A stretch of DNA of 45,244 bases, from the NCBI GenBank assembly GCA_900088475.1, contig FLMG01004167.1, positions 1-45,244 on the forward strand. The letters run 5' to 3'. The notes under the pieces are model-generated. The model saw nothing but the letters and a program-made list of their open reading frames with translations, was not told the DNA's origin and did not search any database. Positions 325-36,060 of the stretch are shown one piece after another. Origin of the DNA: Hyphochytrium catenoides. Taxonomy: Eukaryota; Sar; Hyphochytriomycetes; Hyphochytriales; Hyphochytriaceae. The translations under genes were made by a program, and so were the position numbers. Numbering within the stretch: position 1 is the stretch's first letter; each line of letters begins with the position of its first letter.

Positions 325-517
325 ACAGCTGGACCCTTCTCTTGCTTGTCTCGTGACAGCTGAGCTCAAAGGTGATGACGTGGTTGCTAGTGGTTCAACC
401 CCTCTTCCTCCTTCTTCTCCGCTTATCATTACTGAGGAAATCAACTATGATTCTTCCTTTACTGATGATGAGCCGGCAGCAGATCGAGCTGAGGTGGAAG
501 AGCCTATGGCTTCTTAG
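299..517 (+). CDS. Short acidic reading frame overlapping the retroelement tail (possible frameshifted C-terminus)
   Basis: A 72-codon frame starts at an ATG at 299 inside the end of the previous reading frame and runs to a stop at 517. It begins MHFNRIPPEQLDPSLACLV and becomes Ser/Pro-rich and acidic. Because it overlaps the retroelement tail by 26 bases in a different frame, it may be that protein's natural end displaced by a frameshift. It may also be a second overlapping frame of the element. I recognise no domain. Confidence 0.3.
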   Translation: MHFNRIPPEQLDPSLACLVTAELKGDDVVASGSTPLPPSSPLIITEEINYDSSFTDDEPAADRAEVEEPMAS

Positions 518-3116
518 CTTTTCTTCTCTTTCTCTTCTTCTTCTTCACTTTCTTCTTCTAGATTACTTTGCTAAGTAGTGATAAACCTTCAAAAAATGAA
601 AAGAAAAAAAAGTAGATGGAGAAAAAGAAGGCAATGAAGAAAGAGAAGTGAAGAGACAACAACGCCGGGCTTCCTCAAACTTTTGAACTCCCCAACTCCT
701 TTGTTCGTTGTTTGGTGGAGTCCATCCTTGTTCAAAGGGGTTCAAGTTGTTGAAGAAGGAAAAAGGGTTTTATGGAATGCTCGGAACGGAAGTGCTAGTA
801 GGTTACCGCTGGGCTTGCTGCTGGCTCTGTCGTCCGTCCCTATTCCCTTCTTTCGGAAGGAAGAAGATACCATTTTACTTCCTCTTGGTTGAGCAACTAA
901 CAATAATCCACGCAAAAACGCTTCTTCTTAGGAGGAAGTGCTGCTCATAGCTTGGCTGCTCATCCCTTTTTCCTTTCTATTTTTCTCATCATCCTTGCAG
1001 CTTGACCACATGCATTCATCATAGAAAATATTCTTATTCTTCTCTATGGTGGTTGTGAGGTGAGCTGCTTTTCAATCTTAAGAATACAAGGAAGGTTGGC
1101 AAGAACGAAGTCCGACGGAGAAAGACGTAAGGAACAATTTGTTCTCAAGAATAAGAGGTTAAGAAAGGGGTAGACTCCTCTATTTCCTCCCGTCGTTCCT
1201 TATGGATACTAACTCCTTAGCAACGAGCCCATTTATCCTCCCAACAGGGAAGAGTTGTTGCCTGCTTCACTGCCACCTGCTGTCCCTCCACCACCGCCGT
1301 TGCTTCCCAAGCTCGCCTTCGTAGATCTAGCCATCACCTCTGGATCCGAGTGCCTTAGGAGCAGGGAGACACAAGACAACAGTCGCAATCGCTAACAAGA
1401 TAGAGATGCTACAGAGGGCAATCTTCCATCGGGCCACTTTTCCTCCTACTGTTCCTGTTGCTGGCCCTTGCATTTGTCCCCTGCTGCAACCTTTTGAAGC
1501 ACGACCCGACCGACGGCAGGCAAAGGAGGCGAGTCTTAGAATGTCCTTGCCCGCCTCTGTGTATACTGGTGTTGTAGCAATTAGTGATAAGATTTCGCTG
1601 GGAAAGACAGACCGCCTTCCCTGACCAGGGTAGGTGGGACCTTGAAAGTTGACAAATGTACAATGGAAGAAGGTAAGTAGCCTACGACGAGGAATAGCAT
1701 ATGTCGCCAGTTGACGCAAGGATGACAGGACGGCGAGGACGGGAGAGCGCTTGGCATTGGGTCATACTAACATTGGCAACTCTTTTCTGTCAACCAATTA
1801 GCTTTTGCATTCATACTTCTCTGGGATGGTGCTTACTCTAAGCGTGAATCATAACATGAATCTACTACAGGGTTGCTTTAAGTGGACGTACAGCGACTAA
1901 ACGGAGGAAAGAGGATCTGTTGTTCGACGTAACACCATGCTTTATTATTGGTGCTCGATAAAGCGGTGCATCTTCGGTTTTCCTCTCAGTGGATCTGGTG
2001 GCCGTCTCTCAAGAGCATCCGAAGTAGTACCTACTGAAGGAGGTCTACCAACCTCCGTTCTTCTGCTATCCCTATGATCTTGGCTGAATCATCATGGAGG
2101 GATAACCATTGTTAAAGCTAGTAGCAGCAGTAGAGCATGTTGTTGCATTTGATGTCAGAGCGGTCAATGGCTCAATCTCCCATGATGAGGGCAGTTACAC
2201 GCCTAGTCTTCTCATCACCATCACTTCAAACATGGACGGAATGGCTCGGCCCTATTGTGCATGATGGGAACTGATCATGCCATCATAAATCGTCACGCAC
2301 CAGCTGGTCTACTACCAGGGGTTCTTGGTATGATGACGACAGTAGTAGGGTGCTAGGAAGAGGGACGAAGACGCGAACCTAAGGTCTCTTTTTGGCTGCT
2401 GCTTCTCTCCACCATCCTCAAGTCTGCCACCTTTGTACAGGCAACAACAAGTAATTCCCTGTCGGCATCTTCTTCTCTCCAGGTCGTCCTGCGCAGCTCT
2501 TCCACTCCTCCGCCCCTTCCAATCAAATGTCCTCAACTCGTTACGTCTCTTTATTACCAGGAACTCGCAGGCGAAAAGTCGTCCCACAGAAGAATGCTGC
2601 CGCCAACCCTTTCCAATGATTTAGTTATGCTGCGGCAGAATTTTCAAAGATTTTCTTGCCTGAAACGGCCACCACTGCCCAGCAAGGGAGAAACGACCTT
2701 GTGGCTGTCCTCTGATTGGCTTAGAAGTTAGAACGACTGCAGGAACCAGTCTCATTGGCTAACTAACCCTATTAACCCTGCACAGACGGGGAAGTTTACT
2801 GCATCGAAACATAATCAAAGTGAAAGTTGCAAGACAAGTAAAACTACAAAGCACAAACAGATACTTGGAGTTGAGGATCCACCAAGAAGTCCGTTCCACT
2901 TACTACCGAGCGACGATCAGCGCCTCCTCCACAGAGCGAGTGGTAGACCTCGAAGGTCCACTGCTCTGGATATTATTTGTGCTGCTGCCTACGCGGCGGC
3001 GGTGAGAGCGGGAGGTTGGGCTTGTGCTGTGGTCAAATTGAAGCTGAATATTAGAGACTTCATCGCCGCCACCATTATTGACTCTCTACTTTGGCAAAGC
3101 AATAATGTCCTCACCT
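518..3116. other. Long stretch with no supported gene, between retroelement tail and Fanzor gene
   Basis: About 2.6 kb. Open frames on both strands (for example around 1327-1719 and 2312-2624) are short, overlap each other on opposite strands and show no recognisable motif. The part near 591-612 is A-rich. The right end (about 2700-3116) lies just downstream of the Fanzor stop codon, where Fanzor and TnpB loci commonly encode their guide RNA. I cannot define an RNA boundary from sequence alone. Confidence 0.5.
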
Positions 3117-4697
3117 TCATCTTGTTGTAGGGCGGCTGCCGTCGCTTCTTCCCCTTCTTCTTCCCGTCTCTACCGCCCTTGCTGTTCCCGTTAAGGACCT
3201 GCTGGCCTCCGCTGCCGCCGCCGCCTTTTGAAGACAGGGGACCGCCCGCTGTGGTGAACGGGCAATGAAAAGAATATTCTTTGCCGCATTCACATCAAGT
3301 GACAGCAGATGCCTGCCGGAGGCCTTGCACGCGGTGGACCGACACCGACCGGCGAAGTCCTCGGACTGACTGCCAAGCGGTGACCATCATCGTCTATGAG
3401 CAAATGAGGGAAGAACGGCAGATGTTAGAATAGTGTCTGTGCAGTTATTGTTTACACTGCTCACCTCCCTTTCGACGCCTCTGTCAATCCTTGGCTAAAT
3501 TCCTCCTCCTCTCTGCTGTCGCATCGACCCCGCGACCCCTTGAGACATCCTCCTCCTCACGAGGAATGAGGTGGTCTCCTCATGGCAAGCACTGCACACG
3601 AGAGAGGTTCGGTTCTCGTTGACCATTACTACCACCTCGTAGTAGTGCTTTCGGGCGTTCCCAAGAAGGTACTTCACAGGCACGCTTTGCTCTCCCCGGC
3701 CTGTCGCCCTGACATTGGCGTTGCCATAGGCCAGAACAGGTCGGCGGAGGCGCTCTCCGGTGCCCCCGGGATCGAAGCACAGAGAAGCCAAGAACCTATC
3801 CACTGTGCGCCGCTTGTTGATGTAAACATCGAACTTTGCTCTGGCCACACGGCGCTTCCCGGCGTGAGACGTTATGGCTTCCCACTTCACGCGAACGACG
3901 CGGAGATGATCGACAAACTCCTGAAGATTAGCGGCTGCATTGTTGAACAGCATGAGGGTTGGGTTCCAAATCATATTGTAGAAGACAAAGGTGCACACCA
4001 AGATGACAAACAGACAAGACAAAATGGAGATTCTCATGGTGGTGCTAGGGGCCTTTCAAACTTAAATAGATCAGTGGTTCCACATGTTGTTGTTGATGAT
4101 AGAGATTAGCGATGAGTACAAGATGAATGGTAGAACAATGAAGTGAAGAAGAGGTACCAAAGCTAAAAAAAAAAAGAAGAAAAGTTAGCTGGAGATGCTC
4201 TACCGTTAGCCTTGCGCTGAGAGCGCGCTTGGATGGCCGAAAGATATTCTTCCGAAGAGGCATCCCATTCAGCCATCTTCTCCCTGCTCAGATTACGGTG
4301 ACTCTCCTGAAGGTATTGTCCTCGGGACATATTGTACACATGCCCCTCGTCATCAATTCCACATAACATGTTTGTCCTCCCAGTATCGACACCAATTACC
4401 CGAGGATGTTCAACTGGATAGCGGAGGAGAAAAGGGGAAAGTTTAGGATCATTTAGAAAGTAAAAAGGACGGTCATCAAGTTGACCCGATGACAAACGAC
4501 TTACCAGGGGATAGGTTTTTATGCGGGGTCCGCTGCCCCCATTGGCGCTGTCCTCTCGCAGTCGCTGGAGTTGTGGCTCTACGGCCTGTCACAACATAGT
4601 GGAAGCTACCTGTGACGCCATCCGTCTCAAGGAGTTCTTGAGGTGGAATGTCAAAAAGAGGAGAAGAAGTCAAACGGTGGCTGAGGTCAAGGATCAC
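3117..4697 (-). CDS. Fanzor-type (eukaryotic TnpB-like) RNA-guided nuclease, RuvC and zinc-ribbon core
   Basis: Fanzors are eukaryotic relatives of IS200/605 TnpB and Cas12 that cut DNA guided by an RNA from the transposon end. In minus-strand order I see a strand with LLETDGVTGSFHYV, the segment that normally precedes RuvC-I. A 91-nt intron (4504 to 4414) follows, then RuvC-I as VIGVDTGRTNM with its Asp and SRGQYLQESH after it. The next exon, probably entered at 3934 with matching phase, has LQEFVDHLRV and KRRVARAKFDVYINKRRT, as in the helical part between RuvC-I and RuvC-II. RuvC-II is the Glu of NENRTS, joined directly to the first zinc pair (CSAC). The second half reads CRSTAC, then LDVNAAKNI with the RuvC-III Asp. 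The stop is at 3117-3119. The zinc-ribbon halves lie in different frames: an intron with donor near 3560 and acceptor near 3357 would join them, or the copy carries a frameshift. Exon ends other than those stated are uncertain. Confidence 0.85.
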
Positions 4698-4741
4698 CTT
4701 CAGGTGGAGTCGATAAGTAATAGAATATTACCATGGTGGCA

Positions 4742-4856
4742 GTGATAGCCTATAGTAACCATGGTGGAAATATTGAGGACACCTCACCCAGCCGATCTTG
4801 CTTCAGATCAAAAACGATCTTCCAATACTTCCACCATGGTTACTATAGGCTATCAC
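4742..4856. repeat. Inverted repeat, 34-nt arms, 47-nt spacer
   Basis: The left arm (4742-4775, starting GTGATAGCCTATAGTAACCA) is the reverse complement of 4823-4856 with one mismatch. Part of the arm (the CCATGGTGG block) also recurs just left at about 4731-4739. It lies immediately upstream of the exon carrying the Fanzor TDGV segment, so it is probably in an intron or at the edge of an exon of that gene. Confidence 0.9.
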
Positions 4857-5104
4857 GGCACTTTCCCCATTTCTGTTGAAACCAGGGGTTTAAGGCAGGC
4901 GGGAAAGGCGAAGGGAGAAGGGCGGCGAGCAGGAGAGAGAACACAGCAAATGCCGCGCAAAAGTCAGCTAGGTAGGTTAGTGACTGAGCAGACATTCCAA
5001 CTGGCTGTCGAAAGGGAACTACTGCGATCAAAGAGGTACCACTGTTCCGTACCTCAGGACTCAACGGTCTCTGGTACACTATCCCGAGGCGGAGGCGGCC
5101 ATAC

Positions 5105-5401
5105 AGGAAGAGAGCAAATAGGAGGGAGCGGAATCGCCGGCAGCATGGTGGAGGCAATGAAGATGGAAACTTGCGTACTCCAACTAGGACAGCCAGTGGT
5201 CGGAACCTCGCTAAGCGCTTCTCCATAGCGCCTCTGCCCTCCTTTGGGAGGCATAACGTGTTTGTGGACAGTAGAGGCAATGGAGAAGCGCTTAGCGAGG
5301 TTCCGACCGTTGGCTGTCCTAGTTGGAGTACGCAAGTTTCCATCTTCATTGCCTCCGCCATGCTGCCGGCGATTCCGCTCCCTCCTATTTGCTCTCTTCC
5401 T
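5105..5401. repeat. Long near-perfect inverted repeat, 122-nt arms, 53-nt spacer
   Basis: Arms 5105-5226 and 5280-5401 are reverse complements with about three mismatches (one near the CATGGYGGAGGC block and two in the CAGCCARYGGTCGG block). Because of this the same peptide frame can be read on both strands. The structure is typical of a foldback or MITE-like insertion. Transcribed, it would make a long hairpin. It sits between the possible Arg-rich upstream exon and the Fanzor core. Confidence 0.95.
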
Positions 5402-5479
5402 AGAAACTCAGAAGACGGTATACAAAGAAGAATGCCAGCGATCTCAATCAAGAGGGAAGTGTTAACCCACCTTTCTCTG

Positions 5480-5680
5480 AGATCTTGCGCGGTGCGCTGA
5501 GGACGAGGTGCTATGACAGGCCGGGGTGCAGAGCGCCCCTGCTGCCTTCTCCTCGCACGCCTCGCGCGCCTTTCACTTTTCCTGCGTCTTCCCCTTTGGT
5601 CGCGAGGTCGACGTTCTCTGGGTCGAGGAGGAGGAAGGTGGCCTTGCGGACCTCCCTGCTTGCACCCACCCGTCTAGATA
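5480..5680 (-). CDS. Arg-rich reading frame, possible upstream exon of the Fanzor gene
   Basis: On the minus strand a frame open from about 5680 to 5492 reads as a strongly basic stretch, including RRPRDQRGRRRKSERRARRA, then an Ala/Pro/Arg part ending QRTAQDLRER. A donor-like G-GTGGGT follows. There is no ATG in it, so it would have to be internal or begin elsewhere. Fanzors usually carry basic nuclear-localisation sequence near the N-terminus, which would fit, but basic low-complexity frames also arise by chance in this G/C-rich stretch. Confidence 0.25.
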
Positions 5681-5799
5681 CGGGGAGATTACGAATTGAT
5701 ATCTCCGTAGTACCTGGACAAAGTGATTGGGGTGTTTTCTAATAATCTTCTATGTTATCGGCTCCACCTGCGAAGTACACTCAACGTGGGATCTCAGCA

Positions 5800-6830
5800 T
5801 AGAAGTGGACATAAAGCATACTTGCGGAGGAAGTGCTATTGAAAAAAAACAGCAGAGGAGTCTTTAATCCTTTGGTCCAAGCTGATTTACAAGAAGGAGC
5901 ACACAACAAAGGCGAAGCGAGACGAGAACAAGGCTTTCAGGATCAGAGAAAGAGAAAAACCAGAGTCGACGAAGGAGAGCTGAACGTAGAGATAAGTGCC
6001 TCATCAAAGAGATCTTACCCTCCCCCTATCATTCGTGTAAGCACAGAGTCCCTCTCCTGTCTGATGTACACTTGCACATCACCTGGGAAGACATCTAGAG
6101 GTTGAGTATTCTCCTCCTCTACGCCACGCCCTCGTCATCGTCGGTCTGTCAAGTTGCCGTAGCAGAGGAGTTGGTAGGACAGAACAACAGTCAGTTTCAT
6201 CTACAAGCCCCAAATCCACTGTTGATTAGATACCTCCTCCGCGTCAGCGTCTTTTGCTACTTTGTCGGGCTAGTTATTCAGTTGCCTTCTGACCGCCAGA
6301 AGTGCCCGCTTACTCAGTCCATGATGCTGAAGGGACACGCGCAGGTAGTCCAGCTGACGCTGGAAAAAAGGCTCCTAGTCGTTCGTGGTGGTCGTAATAC
6401 GTAGTTCAAAAGCATTAGAAACCTTTCGAACATAAACTGATTCACCAAGTTTGACAGAGAAGGGGGATCATCAACAGCCAAGATCCACATCAATAGCGGG
6501 CCACCCATTATAGGCAAAGCACCGGAGGATGCCAATTCTTATTATGAGACTGAGTACCAAAGTCTATGAAGGATGAAATCGTAGCGTCATCCTCCACCTT
6601 CAACCAAAAATAAAGGTAGGGGTAACAAGGTCACAATGAACAGTAATAGCAGACATACCGCTAGATGGTTCATGAAGTTGGTTTGGAGCTGTAACCCAAC
6701 TTGAGCGATAGAGTTAATGCCACCGAGCCTTCTTCCAAATTTCTGGAGAAGGCGGTGGGAGACCCCGCGGTCCGCACGAAGGGCATTCTTAAGAAGGATT
6801 GCAGGAATGGGCGGGCAATATTAGACTATG
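5800..6830 (-). CDS. Probable 5' exons of the Fanzor gene (N-terminal half)
   Basis: Several minus-strand segments have good splice signals and protein-like sequence. A segment ending at 6659 reads INSIAQVGLQLQTNFMNHLA and is followed by a strong donor (GTATGT). A short segment at about 6313-6358 (RQLDYLRVSLQHHGL) sits between a TTTTTTCCAG acceptor and a GTAAGC donor. A segment from about 6095 to 6019 reads VFPGDVQVYIRQERDSVLTR and ends at a GTAAGA donor. The pattern resembles the helical N-terminal half of Fanzors (TN..NHL, then YI..ER), and it lies upstream on the same strand. I could not join all phases into one frame, so the link is an inference. Confidence 0.35.
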
Positions 6831-6902
6831 AGAGTAGCTGAAAGACACGGTAAATGGTAGAGACTGAGCGATGCCACAAATCAGTACTTTCCGGTAGAAC
6901 GC

Positions 6903-7395
6903 TCAAGACAAGAGTACAGTTACCACGAATGTGGTGAGCTCCGCACTGAGCTCCATTCGCCTACCCCTCCCAGCATAAGCCCCCTGGGGATCTTCAGCCT
7001 CCTCACCGCAAATAAGGACCAGATGTAGGAAAGTGTTGGCCTTCGACAGATTGGCCAGCGGGTTCCCATTTTGGAGGACCCAGAGCAAATAGAGGTTTAA
7101 CGCTTCCCCCACCCCCTGCTCTATAGGCGTTGGAGACCGCAGTAACGCGAGCCTCCAGCTCATTTTTGAAGCCCGTCCGCAGGACATTCCGATCAGGCTC
7201 GGGCAGAGCCAAATAGTTTTGCCTGGGAATAGAGACGCCTCTAGGCCGCGCTCTATGACTTGCTCCTTCTGGCAGAGTGAATGAAGTGCCCCCTGGTGTC
7301 ACTACATGACACAGAGTTTCGTAACATAAGCACGTAGCGATAGTTAGCTTGTCCCTCTGTTCTTTCATGCTTTTGTCATATAAGCCCTCCTCCAC
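6903..7395 (-). other. Unassigned minus-strand reading frames upstream of the Fanzor exons
   Basis: A 130-codon frame covers 7395 to 7003 (includes GVSIPRQNYLALPEPDRNVL), and a 61-codon frame lies just upstream (7583-7398). The composition of the first looks protein-like, but I recognise no family. It overlaps another open frame on the same strand. It could be a further 5' exon of the Fanzor transcript or noise. Confidence 0.2.
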
Positions 7396-7645
7396 GGTTA
7401 CATACCAGACAGATCGCCATCTAATCCAGCTGTAGTGGCTGTCTGTCGGGCATTGAGTATGTCTATGTGGTCATGAAGACGCTGTCGGCTTCCTGACGTT
7501 CTATGTTGCCTCCTCTGCGATGCCTCCTCCACCCCATGCGCGTCGAAGATCAATGGACCATAAGATAGGGTATCTTGGCACATCCACTACGACACTATCA
7601 AGAACTAGTAACAGCGAAAGCAGCAGAGAAGCGGTAGAAAGAGCT

Positions 7646-7716
7646 CGAAAAAGACAAGGAACAAATCAGACAAGACAAGGAACAAAACAACTCTGATTTG
7701 TTCCTTGTCTTTTTCG
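7646..7716. repeat. Perfect 25-bp inverted repeat with 21-nt loop
   Basis: Bases 7646-7670 (CGAAAAAGACAAGGAACAAA and five more) are exactly complementary to 7692-7716. The loop itself repeats part of the arm (GACAAGGAACAAA), so a slipped alternative pairing is possible. It lies in a gene-poor stretch between the Fanzor locus and the M16 protease gene. Confidence 0.95.
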
Positions 7717-8512
7717 GGAGAATTGTAAAATGATCTGTCTGGTGCCCATGGTTCTCCCTCCGGTTGTTGGGCTCGTGTCTAATCCTGACGCTCCCGAGAC
7801 TCTTATATCCCGCTTTCAATTCCGCTGATGGGGGTGGCCTTTCTTTCCATTTTCGACCTTCATACGAGATTGTGGTGGTCGCCTTCGCTTTTATTTTCGC
7901 TCCCAAATGATATGGTGGTCGTATACATTATTTCCAATTTCGTTGGCTTCCATTTTCGTCTCTCTTCGAGCTGCCCTGGCGGAATTGGAAACGCGAGCAC
8001 AACAGAGTAGAGTTAACCAGGGAATTTAGACAGACCGGGATCCAGATGCAGGTCTTGTTTCCAAGGAAATCCTTTTACAGAAAGGATGCAGAGAGACTAC
8101 GAAGGTGTTAGGCGTCTTCCATGGAAAGAACAAATGCCCTTCAGAACAACGTGCCGGTGTTCAAGCGTTAAAGAACATTCAGAATCAGGGAAGCTTAATC
8201 GTGTATGAGTTACAGTTAATTTCTAATCCTTGATCCCAAAATCCCACAAATCTTTCCAGTCCACCGTTGCCGTTAGCGGTTAGTACAACCTGGGTCATAG
8301 AGTGTCATGATGTGTGAAGTGCATCTGCTGGAGGTTGCAAAAGGAGGAAGTGTGTCGCTAGAGTTCCGCTAGGATGACAGCACAAGCGCCGGGGCCCAAG
8401 CCGGAGATTCACCAAGGAGAAGCTTAGTTGTTTGCCGTCGGCTCTTCTCTCTACCCTGCTCTCTTAAGAGTTGTGAAGCTCGGTCTCCTCTTTCTTGCTC
8501 GGCGGTGTGGGA
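7717..8512. other. Intergenic region 5' of the M16 protease gene
   Basis: No supported gene. A short block (TTCCATTTTCG) occurs twice at about 7846-7960 along with repeated GGTGGTCG, suggesting a small decayed tandem duplication. The promoter of the downstream protease gene should lie here, but I see no clear TATA element. Confidence 0.4.
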
Positions 8513-11500
8513 ATGCGCCTGAGTTCAGTGCAATACGACAAAAGTGTCTTGATTATTCTTATTATCGCTTTCCTCCTGCTGATATTGTCTGAGCAGAGGT
8601 CGAAGGCCTTAGGAGATATGACGGGATCTACGGACCTTGCCAAGGAGGGCGAAGTGCTAGATCAACAGCTCTGCCCTTCTGATTCCTCGTATAAGCTTTC
8701 AGAAGGCATCGAGATCTCTGCGCAGGATGAAAGAGGATATCGAACTCTCTCCCTTCCAAATGACCTCCAGGTAATGCCAGCTCTTTACGGGCTACGCCCC
8801 CAGGGATCAGCAGCGTCTCGGCGGCAATATCTTCGTATTGTTTTCGCCAGTTCTCGCTTTCCTCTCCATTTAATCTCGTTGTTCTTCCTTCATTACTGCA
8901 TGCACCAGGTCCTTCTCATTTCTGATCCTGAGACGGACAAGGCATCTGCAGCTCTCGATGTCGGGGTAGGAAGCCTGTGTGACCCTGCGGAGGTGCCAGG
9001 ATTAGCCCATTTTTTAGAGCACATGCTCTTCCTAGGGACCGAGAAGTATCCAGAAGAAAACAGCTACGGCCAGTTCATCAGTGCCCATGGAGGACGATCG
9101 AACGCTTACACGGCTCTCGAGAACACCAATTACTACTTTGACATCACCCCGTAAGTGGTCAGCAGGCTAAGGTTATCTACCTGCTGGGTTCGTTCTCAAT
9201 CTCAATATCTTGCTGTTAATGTCTCTCACTCATAGCCTCAATCTCTTTCCACCTAAAATCCGTAGTTGTCTTCTCTCCTCGCCTTTGTGGTATCTGTCCC
9301 CTGCGCTAGACGTGGTCTTCCTTCGTAAGCCAGTCAGCCACCCTAATAACCTGCGTTGCGCCTCTAACGATTCGTCTTGGTAGGCCATTCCTTCATGAGG
9401 CACTGGACCGGTTCTCCCAGTTCTTCACAGCCCCTCTCTTCACGGCATCAGCCACGGAGAGGGAAATGAATGCTGTGGATGCGGAGCACTCTAAGAATCT
9501 GCAGAACGACCAATGGAGGATGATGCAGGTAGGCCGTGCTGTTGCTTGGTTGCGTCCTGACAATCATGTGTCTTCGAGCAGTATACGAGCTTAAACTCGC
9601 TGCAATTTAACTGGCAATCTCCTTTACAAAGCCTCTGTTTAAACGACATCCTCACTCTTGCATCCGTACTTTTGAAGACTAGCTCAGCTTTCTGTATATT
9701 TACTCTCCGCTACTAATGGTTTATCTGTCTGCCGTCTCCTCTAGCTCTACCGAAGCCTTGCCAGAGAAGATCATCCCCTTAACCGCTTTGCAACGGGTAA
9801 CCTCCAAACATTAAGTGAAACTCCAAAGAAGCAGGGGGTGGATGTTAGAGAATCTCTGCTGCGGTTCCATCGCACATACTACTCCGCCAACATAATGAAA
9901 CTCGCCGTGATCGGGAGAGAGTCCCTAGACACGCTGGAGGGCTGGGTGAGGGAGCTATTCTCTTCGGTAAAGAACTTCAATGTGAGCAGGCCCATCTTTC
10001 CGGGGAACCCTTTCTCGGCACCGCAGCTAAAGAAGGAGACTCTTCTGGAGCCGGTAAAGGACCTGAGAATGTTGGAGGTGATTTGGCCTCTGCAGCCATT
10101 ACAGAAGCGGTACCTGGAGAAGGCTAGTCATTATGTCTCTCATTTGATGGGACATGAGGGTCCTGGGTCTATCTTGGCTCTCTTGCGCAATAAGAACTGG
10201 GCAAATGAACTGTCTGCTGGTGTCAATAAGGAGCAGAGTGACTTCACAGTGTTTGCCATCTCCATTGAGGTGAGAAGGGCCCTTTCGCTTATCTTTAGTG
10301 GTTATCGCTATCATTTACCCTCGCCAGGGCTCCTGATGGCTCGGCTCAAATAAGTCGCCCTTTACGACAGTAGCCTGAAACTTTTCCCAGCTCTCTCTCA
10401 CTGTTCCTTTCTCATGCCATATCCTATACTCTCGCACTCCCTCAGCTCATCAGATGCCATAACTCATACTCACTCTTTCTCCCTCGCTTGCATCAGTATT
10501 CTTACTATACCCTTCGAATATTTCTTTCTCCATTCTAACACTGGTGTTGTTAGCTCACGACGGAGGGTCTGGATCATGTGGATGAGATTGTGCATACCGT
10601 CTATGAGTACGTTGGGCTACTTAGGCGCTTCGGTCCTCTTCAGTGGGTCTATCAAGAAAGTGCTAATGTGGCAGCGATGAACTTTAGATTCAAGGTAATG
10701 ACGCTTTGAGGAAGAGGAAGATTTAAAGTTCAACCTATCCTTCACCTGCTGTAACACTATTATATCTGGTCATGGGTCTTACCTTTCTCCTGTTTTGAAT
10801 TGTTTGGCCTTCCACCTGACTATCTGCCCGCCACACGCCATAGAGTAAAGAGGAGCCGTATAACTACGCCACCCATCTCGCCAGCAACATGCAGCTCTAT
10901 CCTTCACGGCACATCGTGAGCGGTCCTCGTCTGCTACGAAAGTTTGATCCCAGCCTCATCCAGGACGTCCTAAATCGCCTTCACCCGGATAACATGCGCC
11001 TGCTGGTGGTCTCTAAGAGCTACTCCACTGTTTGCACGTCAACCGAAGAGTGGTATGGGACCCGATACCTTGATAAAGCTATTGCTTCTACCCGTCTAGA
11101 CAGATGGAAGGGAGCTTTGGAAGGCCCAGAGAGCAACTTGCAATTGCCCGCACCGAATGAGTTCATTGCTACAGACTTCAGCCTTAGATTTCCTACTCTG
11201 GAGCCGCAGAAAAGAGCTACCGTCGCGCTGGAGAGCCCGAAATTGGTCAAGGAGGATAGCTTCGGCAAGGTCTGGTATAAGGTAAGGGACTGCCACAAAG
11301 AAGGGAGCTAATGGGTTGTACCATCAAGGTGCAATTGAAAGCTGGTAGAGGTGTTTGCTCCAAGTAGCTGTCAGACTAAGGACCTCCGCTCAGAGAAGAC
11401 AGGCAAATGTTAGGAGCGCAGGGGAGTTTTGATGTCAGGATTTGGTGGCACAAACAGGCTGGGCAAGTTTTAGAGAGAAGCGAGTCCCGAAGCTTCCATA

Positions 11501-13412
11501 GTCGAGTTTCTGACATGCACTCACGTTTCTCGGTCTTTGCAGTACGATGGTGTCTTCCAGAAACCTAAGCTCAACGTTTTGATGACGCTGATCTCTCCAG
11601 CGACCTACTTTTCACCCGCTGATGCAGCCTTGACCGACGTCTTTATCCGCTGCATCAATGATAAGCTTAGTGACTTCGCATATTATGCTGAGGTTGCCTC
11701 TTTAAAATACAGGCTGAGTCAGACGATAGGCACCATCGATCTCTATGTGATGGGCTACAACCATAAGCTGCCAGTGCTATTGAAAAGGATATTGGAGGTT
11801 ATAAAGACTGGACAAATATCAGAGGAGCTCTTTCAGAGAATGAAAGACAAGGCAAAGCGGTCGTATAGGAACTTCAAGCAGGAGCAACCCTATCAACATG
11901 CCATTTATCACACTACGTACATGTTGGAACAAGTAAGATCTTCAGACCTACCTCGCTGTTGCTCTATTTATTCCAGCATTTCTTTCTCTTTGGTTGCCAG
12001 TACATCCGTGCACCGTAACACAAAAGCAGACGCGGCCCCTCCTTCCCTTCTCTCATGTGCCCAGCATCAGTCCGTCGTCCTAACCGGCGTCATTTGACCT
12101 TCCTTTTGTTGGTAGCTTCGATGGCACCACGACGACAAGCTCATCGCTTTAGAAGAGCTCAGCCTCGCAGACTTGGAGGCGCTACGGAAGCGAGTGTTTT
12201 CTCAGCTTTACACAGAGTTTCTGCTGCATGGAAACGTAGAAAAAGAGGCAGCGCTGTCCATTGTGGACGAGAGTAGACAAGTGCTTGGCTACCGCCCACT
12301 TTCTAAGGCGCAGCGGGAACAGGCAAGAGTAGTGCGTCTGAACTCCGGTACAAAGTACCTCTATAGTTCCAGTCCTCTCAATCCTGAGGATCCTAACTCA
12401 GCCATCGAGGTTCTCTTTCAGGTTAGTGCTTATAACAGATGTGGGGAGAGGAGGTGTCATGCATGCGATATAGGAGACTGTTAGGCGCGAGAGAGAACGA
12501 AGGCGTAACAGCATGCACGCCAAATGAATCAGCATGAGGTCCATGAAGGGGCGCGGCGCATAGAGGAAGAGTGCAAGAGAGAAATAAGATTCATTGGGGA
12601 AAGATATCTGACATTTTTAGAAAAGACGTACAAGAGGGCCACTGCTAACCTCTTCTCTTGTGTTTGCTTCCTCTCTTTTTGCTCTTCTGAAGGTTGGGCC
12701 TGAGAACTTACGGCAGTCGAGTCTCGTCAGCCTGCTCGCTCACCTTCTAAAGGAGCCCTTCTATGACAAGCTTCGGACCAAGGAACAGCTGGGCTACCTC
12801 GTCTTCTCTTCGTCGTACTTTTTGCATGGCATCGACTATTTACGCTTCATTATACAGAGCGACAAGTATGATGCTTCCTATCTGGACGAGCGCATTGAGC
12901 TCTTCCTCCTTGCTTTCAGGGACATCTTGATGGAGATGTCAGAGGAAGAGTTTGAGAAGAACAGAGACGCTGTCATCGCGAAGAAGCTGGAGAAAGATAA
13001 GAACCTCTGGCAGGAGAGCGTGCGATACTGGAATGAGATCACGACCCATAGCTATGTCTTTGACAGAACAAGGAGGGAAGGACACTTTTTGAAGACAGTG
13101 AGGAAGGGAGAGATCCTTTCACTATTCGAGGCCTTCCTGGTTCCATCCTCTCCCACTGTGGCAAAGCTTTCGAGTCTCATTTCCACAGCCCTGCAGCAGA
13201 GGGTTGCTGCTCCTTTAGTCAAAAGCAGTGGAGAGGCATGTGCATTGGCGCTGGGGCTAGAGCTAGCGAACGGAGGGAGAGATGGGCACTGCAGCAATGG
13301 CACAAGATCGTCTGGCCTGGAGGTTCAAGTGATACGGGACATGGATGATTTCAAGAGGAGCATGCCCCTCTTCCCTGTCCTGTCAGCACCTGCAACCAGC
13401 AGTAGACTGTAA
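8513..13412 (+). CDS. Insulin-degrading-enzyme-like M16A zinc metalloprotease (insulysin family)
   Basis: Nine exons join with consistent phase: 8513-8770, 8909-9150, 9384-9528, 9745-10269, 10554-10694, 10844-11281, 11543-11932, 12116-12421 and 12693-13412. They give 1054 residues, close to the usual ~1000 for insulysin. The inverted zinc motif HFLEH (HxxEH) is present, with the downstream third ligand Glu in [10 protein letters not shown]. Other insulysin landmarks are [35 protein letters not shown] and, in the last exon, [13 protein letters not shown]. The start is the first ATG of the frame. It is followed by a hydrophobic stretch ([16 protein letters not shown]) that looks like a signal anchor or signal peptide, which cytosolic human IDE lacks apart from its mitochondrial form. 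The Cys that human IDE has inside the zinc motif is Leu here. The enzyme should cut short peptides inside a closed chamber. It is convergent with the next gene. Confidence 0.95.
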
Positions 13413-27688: not shown

Positions 27689-30600
27689 CTACTCTTGGTC
27701 CAGCTCTTCTTCTTCTTCCTTCATCTCCTGAACTAAGTGGCGTCTCATTCTCAAAGCCAGTAAGCCAAGCTTCGTGCCGTGAAGATCATCATCAAAGCAC
27801 TCAGCCTCCGGAACAACATAAAGCATCGGGATCGACGCATCCCCGTGTTTCTCAAAGTACTGCGCCAAGCTTCTAGCAAGGGTAGTCCTATCAGCCTCTC
27901 CCTCCTTCCGCCGCGAAGGGAGAAAGTTGATTGCTTTGCCAAGCTCCAGACCGTGCAAATATTCGGGAAAAGACAAAGGTGGTTCGTCTACATCTTGCCT
28001 CTCGGGGCACCCTTTGCCTTCTTCTGCTTGGCCTTCGGGAGAAGTAGAGGTGATGACATAACCTTCTGGAATGGAATAGTGACCATAAATACGGCCATAG
28101 ATAGAAAGGGCGTGTGCCACCTAACGAGACAGGTAAGGACAGAGGCGAAGCCACAGGGAGAGCGTCAGTGCCTTGCCGGTAGGGGCACACCAAAGCCCCC
28201 GCAAGCCGCACTGATAAGGACATGCCAAAATGGAGATAGGAGCCAAAGACAAGGCCGGCCTAACACAATGCTTGCATTGTTCTATAAAAAAAGATGTATA
28301 AAGCGAGGTAACTAATGGACAAGGACCGGAGAGAGTATGAATGAGGGTAGATAGACCGACCAAGGATGGACACTTACTTGGAACATCCTGAACCTCGCTG
28401 CACTATTCAACGAGGTCTGCACTCCCCATTGAAAGCCTAGCTCCACCAGCCGCTGCCTCTGCTCAGGCTGCAGAAGGAAAGAGTTGCGCTGCCGAACGCG
28501 TGTCACGGTTGTTCCCAGCTTGTACCCCCACAAGGTCTCGGGGTACTGCTCGGACTTTGGAGGAATCACGAACTGAGATGGGACATGTATGTGGCCTAAG
28601 GAGAATAGCAGACGGGCAGAGGGGTTAAAGTAGGTAGATCTCACAAGGATGAGGGAAGGGACACAACCCTAGAGCAACGGTGATGGCGAATCTAGTGGTC
28701 GACCAAGAATCCTCTCTTGCTGCTTTCTAGGGCTCGATGCTCGACCCTCTGCCATGAGATTTTTGGAATACCCAGTGTCTTAACAAATCCTTCCGCAATC
28801 ATCTATCTCCCTTCCTTACCGTGCAGTGCCTTGAACTNNNNNNNNNNNNNNNNNNNNNNNNNNNNNNNNNNNNNNNNNNNNNNNNNNNNNNNAGCCCATC
28901 TTCTCGAGCTCTTCCTTTTCCTGATCCTTGATCTTTCTCTTGCCCATTCTAATGACCAGCATTATCCGGCCTAGGGCCAGGCCGTGAAGCTTAGGTTCCC
29001 AATCTTCTGAATAAGGCACTTCGAAGGTATAATGGACATCGGTATGCCCATAGAGTTCCTTCGTAGACAGAGCAAAGAGGGATGAGGAGGAGCAGTAACA
29101 AGATGCACTATAGTGGGAAGCTTTCAAAGAAAAGATAAGGCCCCATCTACTCAGGTCGGCGAAGGATCAACAAACTACAAAGGAACGCAAAGGGCCCAGT
29201 TAACAACCATACGATCACCAGGCCGAGGCCTTTGGCAGAGGAGAACTGAAAGAAAGTTACCTTAAACGTCCTCACTGCCTCTAGCAGCGTCGCCATGCTC
29301 TCGCGATGTCTGCTTCGGAAAACCCATTCATAGCCTATCGTTGCCGAGAAGGCTTGGTCACCGGCGACCCTATCTAAGAGAGTGCGGCGATAGCTCTTGG
29401 ACTGTAAGAGTTTGCCAAATGGAAATCCAGCAAGATGGCGAGGCCAAGAAAGGGATGAAGATGATTGAGAAGTCGTGGTAGACATTGGGAGAGAGGATGG
29501 AGCATCAGAGAAATCGGCGAAGGATGAGGACGGGGCAGGGGTGGTCGGAACCACGAAAGTGTGCGGGACTCTTGTATGGCCATATCGCTGTTTGAAGTGA
29601 TGTAAAAGGAGCTTGGCATCTTCAACGGAGATGGTCTCCAATGATGATGCGCCTTCTCTCCAACCTTCCGCTTCATTGCCTTTCTTTGTGTGCTGCCAAC
29701 GAAAGCCAAGTCGCGCTAACTTGGTGAAGGTGTCAGAGCTCTTGTCAAGGTATGCAAAGTCTTCTCTCATTTGGTGAAGCCGTTCGCCTAAATCAAGCCC
29801 GTGATAGCGATGGTCGGGCCAAATCGAGGGATCAGATGGGACAGCGAACTTTCGCTCAACCTATAAGAAGAGTAGATCAGTAAGGGAGATCATTTGAGGA
29901 AGAACTTCCAGAACGACGAAGAAAGAATAGGTGTTATCATAGAGATAACCATGGAGGTAGACGACAGAAGCATGTGGGGATGACCAACAGTAGCAACGTC
30001 AGCATGAAAGAGCCTGATAGACGGGCGGGAAGAGGAGCCGACAGCGATGCAACAGGTCAACTTCATGGAAAGGTTGTGCTAGCAAATCGATGAGAAGTGA
30101 CTCGGATAGAGCTTTGGATGGTGGGGATCGGATCGGCTGACCTAATGAATTATTAGGCTGGTCGGTCGGAGAACAAGAAGCATTCACGCAAAGCAATCAT
30201 CTCTACTAAGAAAGGGACGCTATAAAGGTTGAAAGTACCTCAATGTGCCCATACTTGCTTTTGTACTGCTCGAGAGCCCCCAAGATGGTCTCTATGGGCC
30301 TCAAAGGCTTCTGATCCCACACGAATCCGACCGCTTCTAGCTCTTGCCGACGAGCAGGAGAAAGACGACCTTTTCGTTCTCTCAAAGAGCGAGCCATGTT
30401 TCCTAGCGGGAGACCCCAGTGCTGCTGGGGCCATCGGCCTAGTGAGGACGCTTAGTTCCATTCATCAGGAGGTTCTACCACAGGAGATCCTAATAAAGGT
30501 AGAGCTATACTAAGAAGACTAGAGGTAAAAAAGAGAGCGAATGGTAAAGCCAAACCAGGCCTCTTACGGTCGCGGAAGGAGGGAAGTAAGACTCCTCCGC

Positions 30601-33342: not shown

Positions 33343-36060
33343 ATGCAATTGCTCCATGGACGTCTCTTCACAGCCCTAAGGCGACAATGTATGCCGGCTT
33401 CATCGACCTCAGGAGCTGATGTAGCCATTCGTTGTCTGAGAGTTGGGCCCAGCTTCATCTCCGCCAAGGTCCCGCCCTCTGTATCAGGTATCTGCACAAG
33501 ACGATTGAGTAAAAGCGCTGACTCAGTTGGAGCTGATGGGGAGGGAAGGCAAGAATCTTATGGCGCAACAAAGTGCACGCCTTTGGAGCTTGCATCGACC
33601 TATCCTCAGTCGTTCCTGTCTCAGCTCGCGCGGCGAAGACTGGGTGCTAACCGCCATGAAATGTTTGAAGCTGTGATGGTCTCTGCCATCCAGATCTACT
33701 ACCAAGTATATGGCACCAGTGTTATCCCACCCGATTTTGTCGTTCCAGGGCCTGGCGAGTCTCTGAAGGTATCTAAAATTAGACTGGTGTCAATCAATGG
33801 AAAACGGCTTGCACTGACTTATGCCTTTTTACCTCCTCTTGACAACCCTCTCCGGCTTCTTTCCCTATGACAAGGGTGGAGATGAGTCTCGAAACCCGTG
33901 GCCGGCCAATTTTGCTCAGCTGGAGCTTGGACGGCTCATTCCTCGCTTCCGTGTCCTTGTCAAGAAAGGCGTGTTATCACCCTCGTCGATGTCTACCTTA
34001 GAGGAGCTTAAGTTTTATCGCCCAAGACCGGAGCTTAAGGTCCGCGAGCCCACTCCATTTCCTTTCTCTTGTTTAGAGTTCTCCTCTAGATGCTGTTCTT
34101 CCTCTCTGAACGTACTCGATCACACAGAGTTGTTATGCGACTTCAAGGACGCATGGCTATGCTCCTTCAAGTACTCCGTCCTGCGTATTGGTTCTGCTAT
34201 GCCATTTGCTCGGTCAATGTGACTTGATATGACTTCAGTGTTGAGATCGCTGCTGCTTTCCTTTTGCATCAGCCGGAGACTGTTCTGGCTGGCCTTAAGA
34301 AGTACAAGGAGATTCATGGACATGTCGCCGTGCCCTCGCACTTCGTCGTGCCTGACACCGCAGTATGGCCGGAGGAATTGCATGGTACAGTAAGGTTTGC
34401 TTCGTCTTCTACTTTCACGGTTTACCATTTATCTGAGGCTTCATGACACTACCCTGCGACCCTGCTTCGCCTGAACAAGGATGTCCACTTCGGTTCAAGA
34501 CTCATTGCTTTTCGACCAAGCTTAACTCTGACTCTCTCCGTGCGCACTCCCCACTTCTTCCTGTACGTCACTCCTATGTCGATCTCTGTCCCTGAACTCT
34601 GCGCTCTTATACTGACCCCATGGCCACAATAGGGTTCAAGCTCGGGAATGTCATTGATACCATTCGATACAAGGGCCTCCTTCTTGCTCGACACCCAGAG
34701 TTACGATCCGAACTGACTAGACTCGGATTTGTTTGGCGAAAGAAAGATGAAGGCTTTGAGCGGATAATGGAAGGACTCAAGGTGTACGAAGAGCTGCATG
34801 GCCATCTCGTGGTGCCCTCGTGTAAGAAGTAGACAGAGTTTAGAAGCCAGAGCTGGAGCTTTTCCTGTCTTTCTAGTGTTCCACCTCTGACAGTAGTATT
34901 GAAGGTTTTTCTGCACCTCAGTCCGTCATTATCTCTATCTTTTCTCCGCGGTTTCTGGTTGTTTACAGGCTTCTCTCTTTCTAGTTAGCCTCCACAATGT
35001 CTCTCAGACTTTCTCATTGCCTTTCCTCTAGCGTTCGTAATCCCTGAGAGCCCTGACTGGCCAGCCCATCTGCATGGCATGAGCTTGGGTACTGGCGTTC
35101 TGGTCATCCGGCAAGGATTCTTTTTGCAGAACCGTCCTGACCGAGTCGAGGCCTTGAATGCTCTGGGCTTTGTCTGGAAGGTCCAGGACTACGTAAATAA
35201 CAGGCTCATCGTAGCACTGGAGACCTATAAGAAGATATACGGAAAAATCTCGTCGATGAAGACGGACTTCATTATCCCCGACACCGAGGCTTGGCCTCCG
35301 CAGACGAGGGGCTACTTTTTGGCCCGTCGGATAAACAAGATAAGGGAGTTGGGGAGAGACGGTGTGCCTGCAGGACTGAGGGATGCGCTTGAAGCGATAG
35401 GCTTTGAATGGTGTCCAGGCACTGAACGAAGGTAAGACCAAGGAGGAAAAAAGAACAATCAGTGTAGCCGACAGCCACAGCGGGGGCGAGAACTAACCAG
35501 GTCTTAACCTTCGTTTATTGATCTCTTCTCCTTCTTGTCGCGGTAGGTGGCAGGAGCTCCTGATGGCACTTACTCATTTCAAAAAGATCCACGGCCATGT
35601 TAAAATCAAGCCGACGTTCGTTGTGCCCAAGGACGACAGCCGTTGGCCTTCATCGCTCCATGGCAGGAAGCTCGGGAGGCAACTAGAGAACGTCCTCCGT
35701 ACCAACAACTTCTTACGGGGAGAGAAGAGGGAAGAGCGAGAGGCGGCGCTAGAGAAGCTGGGCCTCCTTCCTGACATAGAGGCAGAACTGTTCAAGAGGC
35801 TCCACAGCGCTCTTCACCATTACAAGAAGCTGAACGGCCATCTGAAGATTCCTTTCAAGTTCACTGTTCCTATAAAGGAACCCTGGCCAACTAGCACTCA
35901 TCGCCTCCCTTTAGGGACCATCGCGTTACAGATGAAGAAAGGCCGGCTCTTCGCGACAGATAAGGAGAGACGGGCGGCTCTAGGCGCATTTGGGGAGATT
36001 GAAGTGATAGATCTGCCGGTGAAGAAGACGAAGACGGATAGGAGGAGGAAAGTGGAATGA
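33343..36060 (+). CDS. Protein of six helicase-associated (HA)-like repeats, presequence-like N-terminus
   Basis: Six exons join in phase (33343-33768, 33875-34039, 34273-34384, 34633-34821, 35032-35431, 35547-36060) to 601 residues. The N-terminus MQLLHGRLFTALRRQ is hydrophobic and Arg-rich, like an organelle-targeting peptide. Repeats follow: VYGTSVIPPDFVVP; IHGHVAVPSHFVVP with WPEELHGFKLGNVIDTIR; LHGHLVVPS with WPAHLHGMSLGTGVLVIR and LGFVWK; IYGKISSMKTDFIIP with a GYFLARRINKIR step and IGFEW; IHGHVKIKPTFVVP with WPSSLHGRKLGRQLENVLR; and LNGHLKIPFKFTVP. The C-terminus is Lys/Arg-rich (VKKTKTDRRRKVE). It contains no helicase motor and no catalytic motif that I recognise. It is a divergent neighbour and probable paralogue of the minus-strand repeat gene. 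A nucleic-acid-binding scaffold is a guess from the domain's usual company. Confidence 0.85.

Follow-up and report, generated by a model that had tools for sequence, protein, structure and literature searches.

The window analysed here, the whole 45,244-nucleotide (nt) contig FLMG01004167.1 of Hyphochytrium catenoides, carries on its minus strand a gene of the Fanzor family of eukaryotic RNA-guided nucleases, in what is probably a ruined state. Its C-terminal motifs can be read directly from the DNA: TDGV (4625-4614) is followed by VDTGRTNM of RuvC-I (4390-4367), NENRTS of RuvC-II (3620-3603) directly before the first zinc pair CSAC (3596-3585), the second zinc pair CRSTAC (3344-3327) and LDVNAAKNI of RuvC-III (3299-3273). 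An earlier note on this DNA had claimed these motifs, in this order and on one strand, and they are present as described; the spacing is Fanzor-like, with 169 residues from D to TS and with E and the first zinc Cys 6 residues apart, and a Glu stands at the alternative position, six residues before the zinc finger, as NENRTSLVC. The gene nevertheless extends well outside the limits of 3117-4697 that the note had given it.

Considering the exons from the 5' side, exon A, with TDGV, covers 4505-4727, as judged from its open frame, an in-frame join and alignment to two proteins, P0001 and P0002; its 5' limit is provisional, and the joined model of 335 amino acids (aa) begins at 4679. Intron 1 (4504-4414, 91 nt, GTAAGT..CTATCCAG) is the in-phase intron that the note had proposed between TDGV and RuvC-I, and leads into exon B (4204-4413), which holds the RuvC-I Asp codon (4387-4385, in DTG) and is supported by the join and by frame-aware alignment. 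Intron 2 (4203-3935, 269 nt, GTAGAG..AATGCAG) comes from the same alignment, its junction fitting P0001 SSLDDFLNYCRV, and precedes exon C (3561-3934), which contains the RuvC-II Glu codon (3617-3615) and CSAC and matches P0001 in tblastn (E 2e-16). Indeed, introns 1 and 2 were both recovered blind when the DNA was aligned to a profile of three relatives with introns and frameshifts allowed, at a score of 292.7; the opposite strand scored 70.7, and the three shuffles 37.3, 50.0 and 46.5. The last exon, D (3117-3393), would hold the RGL block, CRSTAC, the RuvC-III Asp (codon 3296-3294, in LD) and the stop (3119-3117).

Much depends on intron 3, and the splicing drawn here is our best estimate. 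By splice-site comparison its likeliest form runs from 3560 to 3394 (167 nt), with the donor GTGAGG (3560) and the acceptor TTTGCTCATAG (exon from 3393) making the best pair by eye; six other GT..AG pairs preserve one frame, with acceptors that by eye lack a pyrimidine tract. Alternative ends lie at 3370, 3366 or 3360, and GT..AG introns of 91, 269 and 195 nt join the four exons without a stop, whilst frame-aware alignment places intron 3 at 3528-3370, unlike the likeliest form. The likeliest pair yields TMMVTAWQSVRGLRR, in the frame ...VRGLRR, which fits the RGL..C block of the family and is out of frame with CRSTAC. Between RGLRR and the zinc pair four bases (3348-3351) are duplicated in tandem; DNA alignment shows this insertion to be absent from a sister fragment elsewhere in the genome (C221:25665-25799; E 0.007 in the genome search, E 1e-6 within the locus), which reads RGLRRCWSTVCRKFLKHHLVSRDVNAARNIL as one frame. 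Both the second zinc pair and the Asp of RuvC-III are thus probably out of frame with RuvC-I and RuvC-II, and the second half of the C4 motif would be in frame only under the less likely splicing. The note's statement that all three catalytic residues are present therefore holds for the DNA and fails for the frame set by the likeliest splice sites, and its single reading frame for the motifs is probably lost, as the likeliest intron 3 and the four extra bases displace CRSTAC...LDVNAAKNI.

Two residues diagnostic of Fanzor1 have changed as well. RuvC-I reads DTG in the window and DPG in 16 of 16 aligned relatives, a triplet described as near exclusive in Fanzor1 (PMC10711439); RuvC-III reads LD, as against RD in 13 of the 15 relatives whose sequence extends to that column, and SLD as against SRD in the C221 fragment. 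The Fanzor1 motif D-X(125,275)-[TS][TS]XX-C4-X(5,50)-RD, as quoted from PMC3627910, is accordingly followed only so far: D-X(169)-TS-LV-C4 fits, and the end is LD.

That the locus holds a true relative of Fanzor1, with P0001 and P0002 closest to it, is strongly supported by sequence comparison. Against a database of 5.8 billion proteins, the 335-aa model finds P0001 (541 aa) at E=5e-28, the sole protein at E<=0.1 among the matches listed (3537 candidates). A profile of the window's relatives matches only three chains in the PDB at E<=1, all Fanzor1, so that assignment at the PDB level runs via the family profile and not via the window protein itself. Taken with the P0001 match, this points to Fanzor1 rather than to TnpB or Fanzor2, and so sharpens the note's more general naming of a Fanzor. 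Could the motifs instead come from some unrelated zinc-ribbon protein, or be chance, an outcome that the note had envisaged for a profile search? The 335-aa model scores 25.6 bits against PF07282 (TNB), slightly under the cut-off of 26.3, single exons find nothing above cut-off in Pfam, and the window protein by itself has no match among PDB chains; yet the P0001 match and the Fanzor1-specific profile and fold matches of the family contradict such an origin, to which we attach a negligible probability. As a separate observation, several relatives among P0003-P0009 and P0016 lack the first zinc-ribbon CxxC (in one case the Glu is followed by QIHH); at RuvC-III, P0016 reads RN, as GtFz1 of Guillardia theta does.

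The N-terminal half has a frameshift, probably a stop, and a part that seems to have been flipped; the first two are judged against a second sister copy. A genome DNA search with 5700-8450 returned one other copy, C427:10005-12011, at 85-94% in its pieces; the stretch of the window shared with it is 6255-8008 (minus strand, 85-90% piece by piece). An N-terminal exon (AYRAG / NLYLLWVLQNG) lies at approximately 7012-7186 on the minus strand, with P0002 at E 0.16; it carries four extra G at 7107-7110 that change its frame, where the C427 exon is a single frame whose 49 aa match P0002 (E 0.06). Further along, a TAG (6272-6270, minus strand) stands where C427 has TGG (Trp), in a putative N-lobe exon whose status as an exon is weak (P0007, E 15). 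C427 is likewise damaged: one further putative exon there has a 1-nt indel, and the 18 kb of it that were read contain no C-terminal half.

A further N-lobe-like segment, LAKRFSIAPLPSFGRHNVFVDSR, lies at 5207-5275 on the plus strand, opposite to the gene. It reads AKRFSIAPLPSFGRHNVFVD, where the N-lobe block of the relatives, in P0011, is AKRFDVVPICSVRRHYISID (P0011 E 0.18, P0002 E 12, P0012 E 35; P0001 E 2e-5 with an Arg-rich neighbour unmasked). It sits within a 297-bp palindrome (5105-5401) with arms of 125 nt, 97% complementary, and a 47-nt spacer, and we hold with moderate confidence that one N-lobe exon has been inverted there. A second palindrome (4739-4859; arms of 37 nt, 95%) has a 47-nt spacer like the first, and a third hairpin (7646-7716) has arms of 25 nt at 100% and a 21-nt spacer.

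Could the gene nonetheless be intact and working, its breaks being assembly errors or spliced around, for instance through the acceptor at 3366 and N-terminal exons that we have failed to recognise? The C-terminal half can indeed be spliced in frame so as to retain D, E and D, and the lack of one uninterrupted frame depends on splice choice and on assembly accuracy. However, both 4-nt insertions and the TAG, all seen against sister copies, as well as the opposite-strand exon, would have to be errors or avoidable, and no splicing can alter LD and DTG. We therefore regard an intact enzyme as very unlikely. Because of the frame loss at RuvC-III and the zinc pair, the N-terminal damage and the two changed diagnostic residues, this copy most likely makes no working RNA-guided enzyme; of the two fates that the note had offered, an intact programmable nuclease and a recently decayed one, the frame breaks relative to C221 and C427 speak for the second.

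Hairpins recur around such fragments. In a scan for arms of >=22 nt and gaps of <=300, those of the window fall at three places, all within 4739-7716, with none in the rest of the 45 kb and none in eight sampled 5-kb stretches (0/8). C427 has two in 18 kb, one of them within the Fanzor copy (hairpin-type inverted duplication at C427:10637-10861); another fragment, C53 (L004 1486-1730), has one, its RuvC-II exon being inversely duplicated; around C146, C585 and C221 there are none. Three of six Fanzor fragments thus bear hairpins. We considered whether the Fanzor1 copies of this genome have been scarred by their own RNA-guided cutting at element sites: breaks mended through fold-back synthesis, brief fill-in and capture of telomere repeats would leave the hairpins of the window, C427 and C53, as well as both 4-nt insertions of the window and the (TTAGGG)3 in C427. 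On the other hand, ordinary transposon decay fits too, a guide match at a scar is not shown, hairpins occur at a few other loci (L016, L019, L021/L026, L052), and a 528-bp palindrome, larger than that of the window, is found at the remnant of a piggyBac transposase on C1030 (L065 922-1449). Self-cutting is in our view highly unlikely, and those other hairpins speak against any special role at Fanzor fragments.

What, then, of the element that carried the gene? Its probable 3' end is TTAACCCTGCACAGACGGGG (2772-2791, plus strand), recognised because it recurs with different outer flanks: on C638 it is exact, with the next 46 nt at 91%, and in C427 it has one mismatch. The end can be placed at about 2772-2776, marked TTAA-CCCTGCACAGACGGGG, and this TTAA-CCC end is present in three places; a fourth match to TTAACCCTGCACAGACGGGG, on C1027, has 2 mismatches and lies within apparent coding sequence. 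In C427, TTAGGG repeats (~12011-12048) link the element end to the truncated Fanzor, with (TTAGGG)3 at the deletion junction; these repeats look like telomere repeats captured at a break. We found no 5' end of the element, no inverted end in the window matching TTAA-CCC and no transposase within the Fanzor copy. Remnants of piggyBac-type transposases (PF13843) lie at C996:57832-58851 and C1030:50247-50501, some pieces with stops, and the stretches fetched around them hold no close copy of the TTAA-CCC end. The gene would lie in the remnant of a DNA transposon. The 42.5-Mb assembly contains at least six Fanzor fragments (the window, C427, C146, C585, C53 and C221), none of those detected being intact; searches with 4700-5700 found only the window itself and those with 500-4700 no further Fanzor copy, counts that are lower bounds, as the searches score the best candidates only and ignore introns.

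Taken together, we put at roughly 86% the probability that an intron-containing Fanzor1 gene has decayed here, inside what is left of a DNA transposon. Several observations weigh against it, besides the sub-threshold TNB score and the missing PDB match. The frame breaks are read from one assembly alone, without read data, and the N-terminal and opposite-strand exon matches are individually weak (E 0.06 to 35). Differences between the window and C427 do occur at similar rates at exonic (27/357) and other sites (72/920), and strong selection leaves no sign here; yet the sample is small, the exon limits were set by us, and with six amino-acid-changing and five silent codons in one exon mild constraint may be present. 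Moreover, 335 C-terminal codons can be joined stop-free through GT..AG introns, something that old pseudogenes seldom allow. Perhaps a shortened RuvC/zinc protein is expressed from them and kept for another purpose, the N-terminal half being damaged; this would require the less likely acceptor, and the arginine of RD and the proline of DPG are lost, so that we think such domestication very unlikely. By analogy with solved Fanzor1 relatives, a protein of this kind, when intact, would bind an RNA whose transcription runs across the 3' end of the element, recognise DNA beside a short motif and cut through a RuvC domain with Asp, Glu and Asp; the predicted RNA fold of the 3' end is indistinguishable from shuffles (z 0.21 and -1.16).

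Elsewhere in the window, a spliced M16 (insulinase-type) peptidase gene lies beside the element (8477-13412, plus strand; PF00675, PF05193, PF16187), and two open reading frames match the helicase-associated HA domain, one at 35497-36060 (plus strand) with 39.3 bits, above the cut-off, and one at 29147-29860 (minus strand) with 19.4 bits, below it.

With P0001 and P0002, the locus adds a Fanzor1 branch to a family that is employed in genome editing. It also counsels caution: three catalytic motifs in the correct order can occur in a dead copy, whose frame breaks become visible only through sister copies. The hairpins, if truly enriched, would give a clue to the decay of such elements.

Among the papers listed from the Fanzor literature (subscription journals mostly outside), none names the pattern seen here. 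The closest matches of the window gene, P0001 and P0002 (813 aa), have TDGV, RuvC-I, RuvC-II, zinc and RuvC-III in the same order, and share with it an Arg-rich stretch before an LPKTWNLAP block; P0001 is 35% identical to the 335-aa model over 81%. Both are uninterrupted as listed and have DPG and RD; the window differs in its DTG, its LD and its frame breaks. Bao and Jurka (2013) described Fanzor1 as a passenger of DNA transposons, a viral group of which has 4-bp TTAN duplications and 13-bp inverted repeats (PMC3627910); for the window element one end is placed, no transposase is seen and no superfamily is assigned. The Fanzor1 proteins of Spizellomyces and Parasitella (8gkh, 9cf0; 16-18% in structure alignment) are active, unlike the window copy. 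The best solved relative of the family profile is GtFz1 (9cer, 9ces, 9cet; 5.9e-42), an active enzyme whose third catalytic residue is Asn (PMC11423790), where the window has an Asp that the likeliest splicing puts out of frame. The target motif of GtFz1 is given as TTAA (PMC10432273, PMC11423790), one sentence of PMC11423790 swapping the order of the GtFz1 and SpuFz1 motifs, and it agrees with the TTAA at the window's element end; for both reasons TTAA would perhaps also be the motif recognised by the window's protein when intact.
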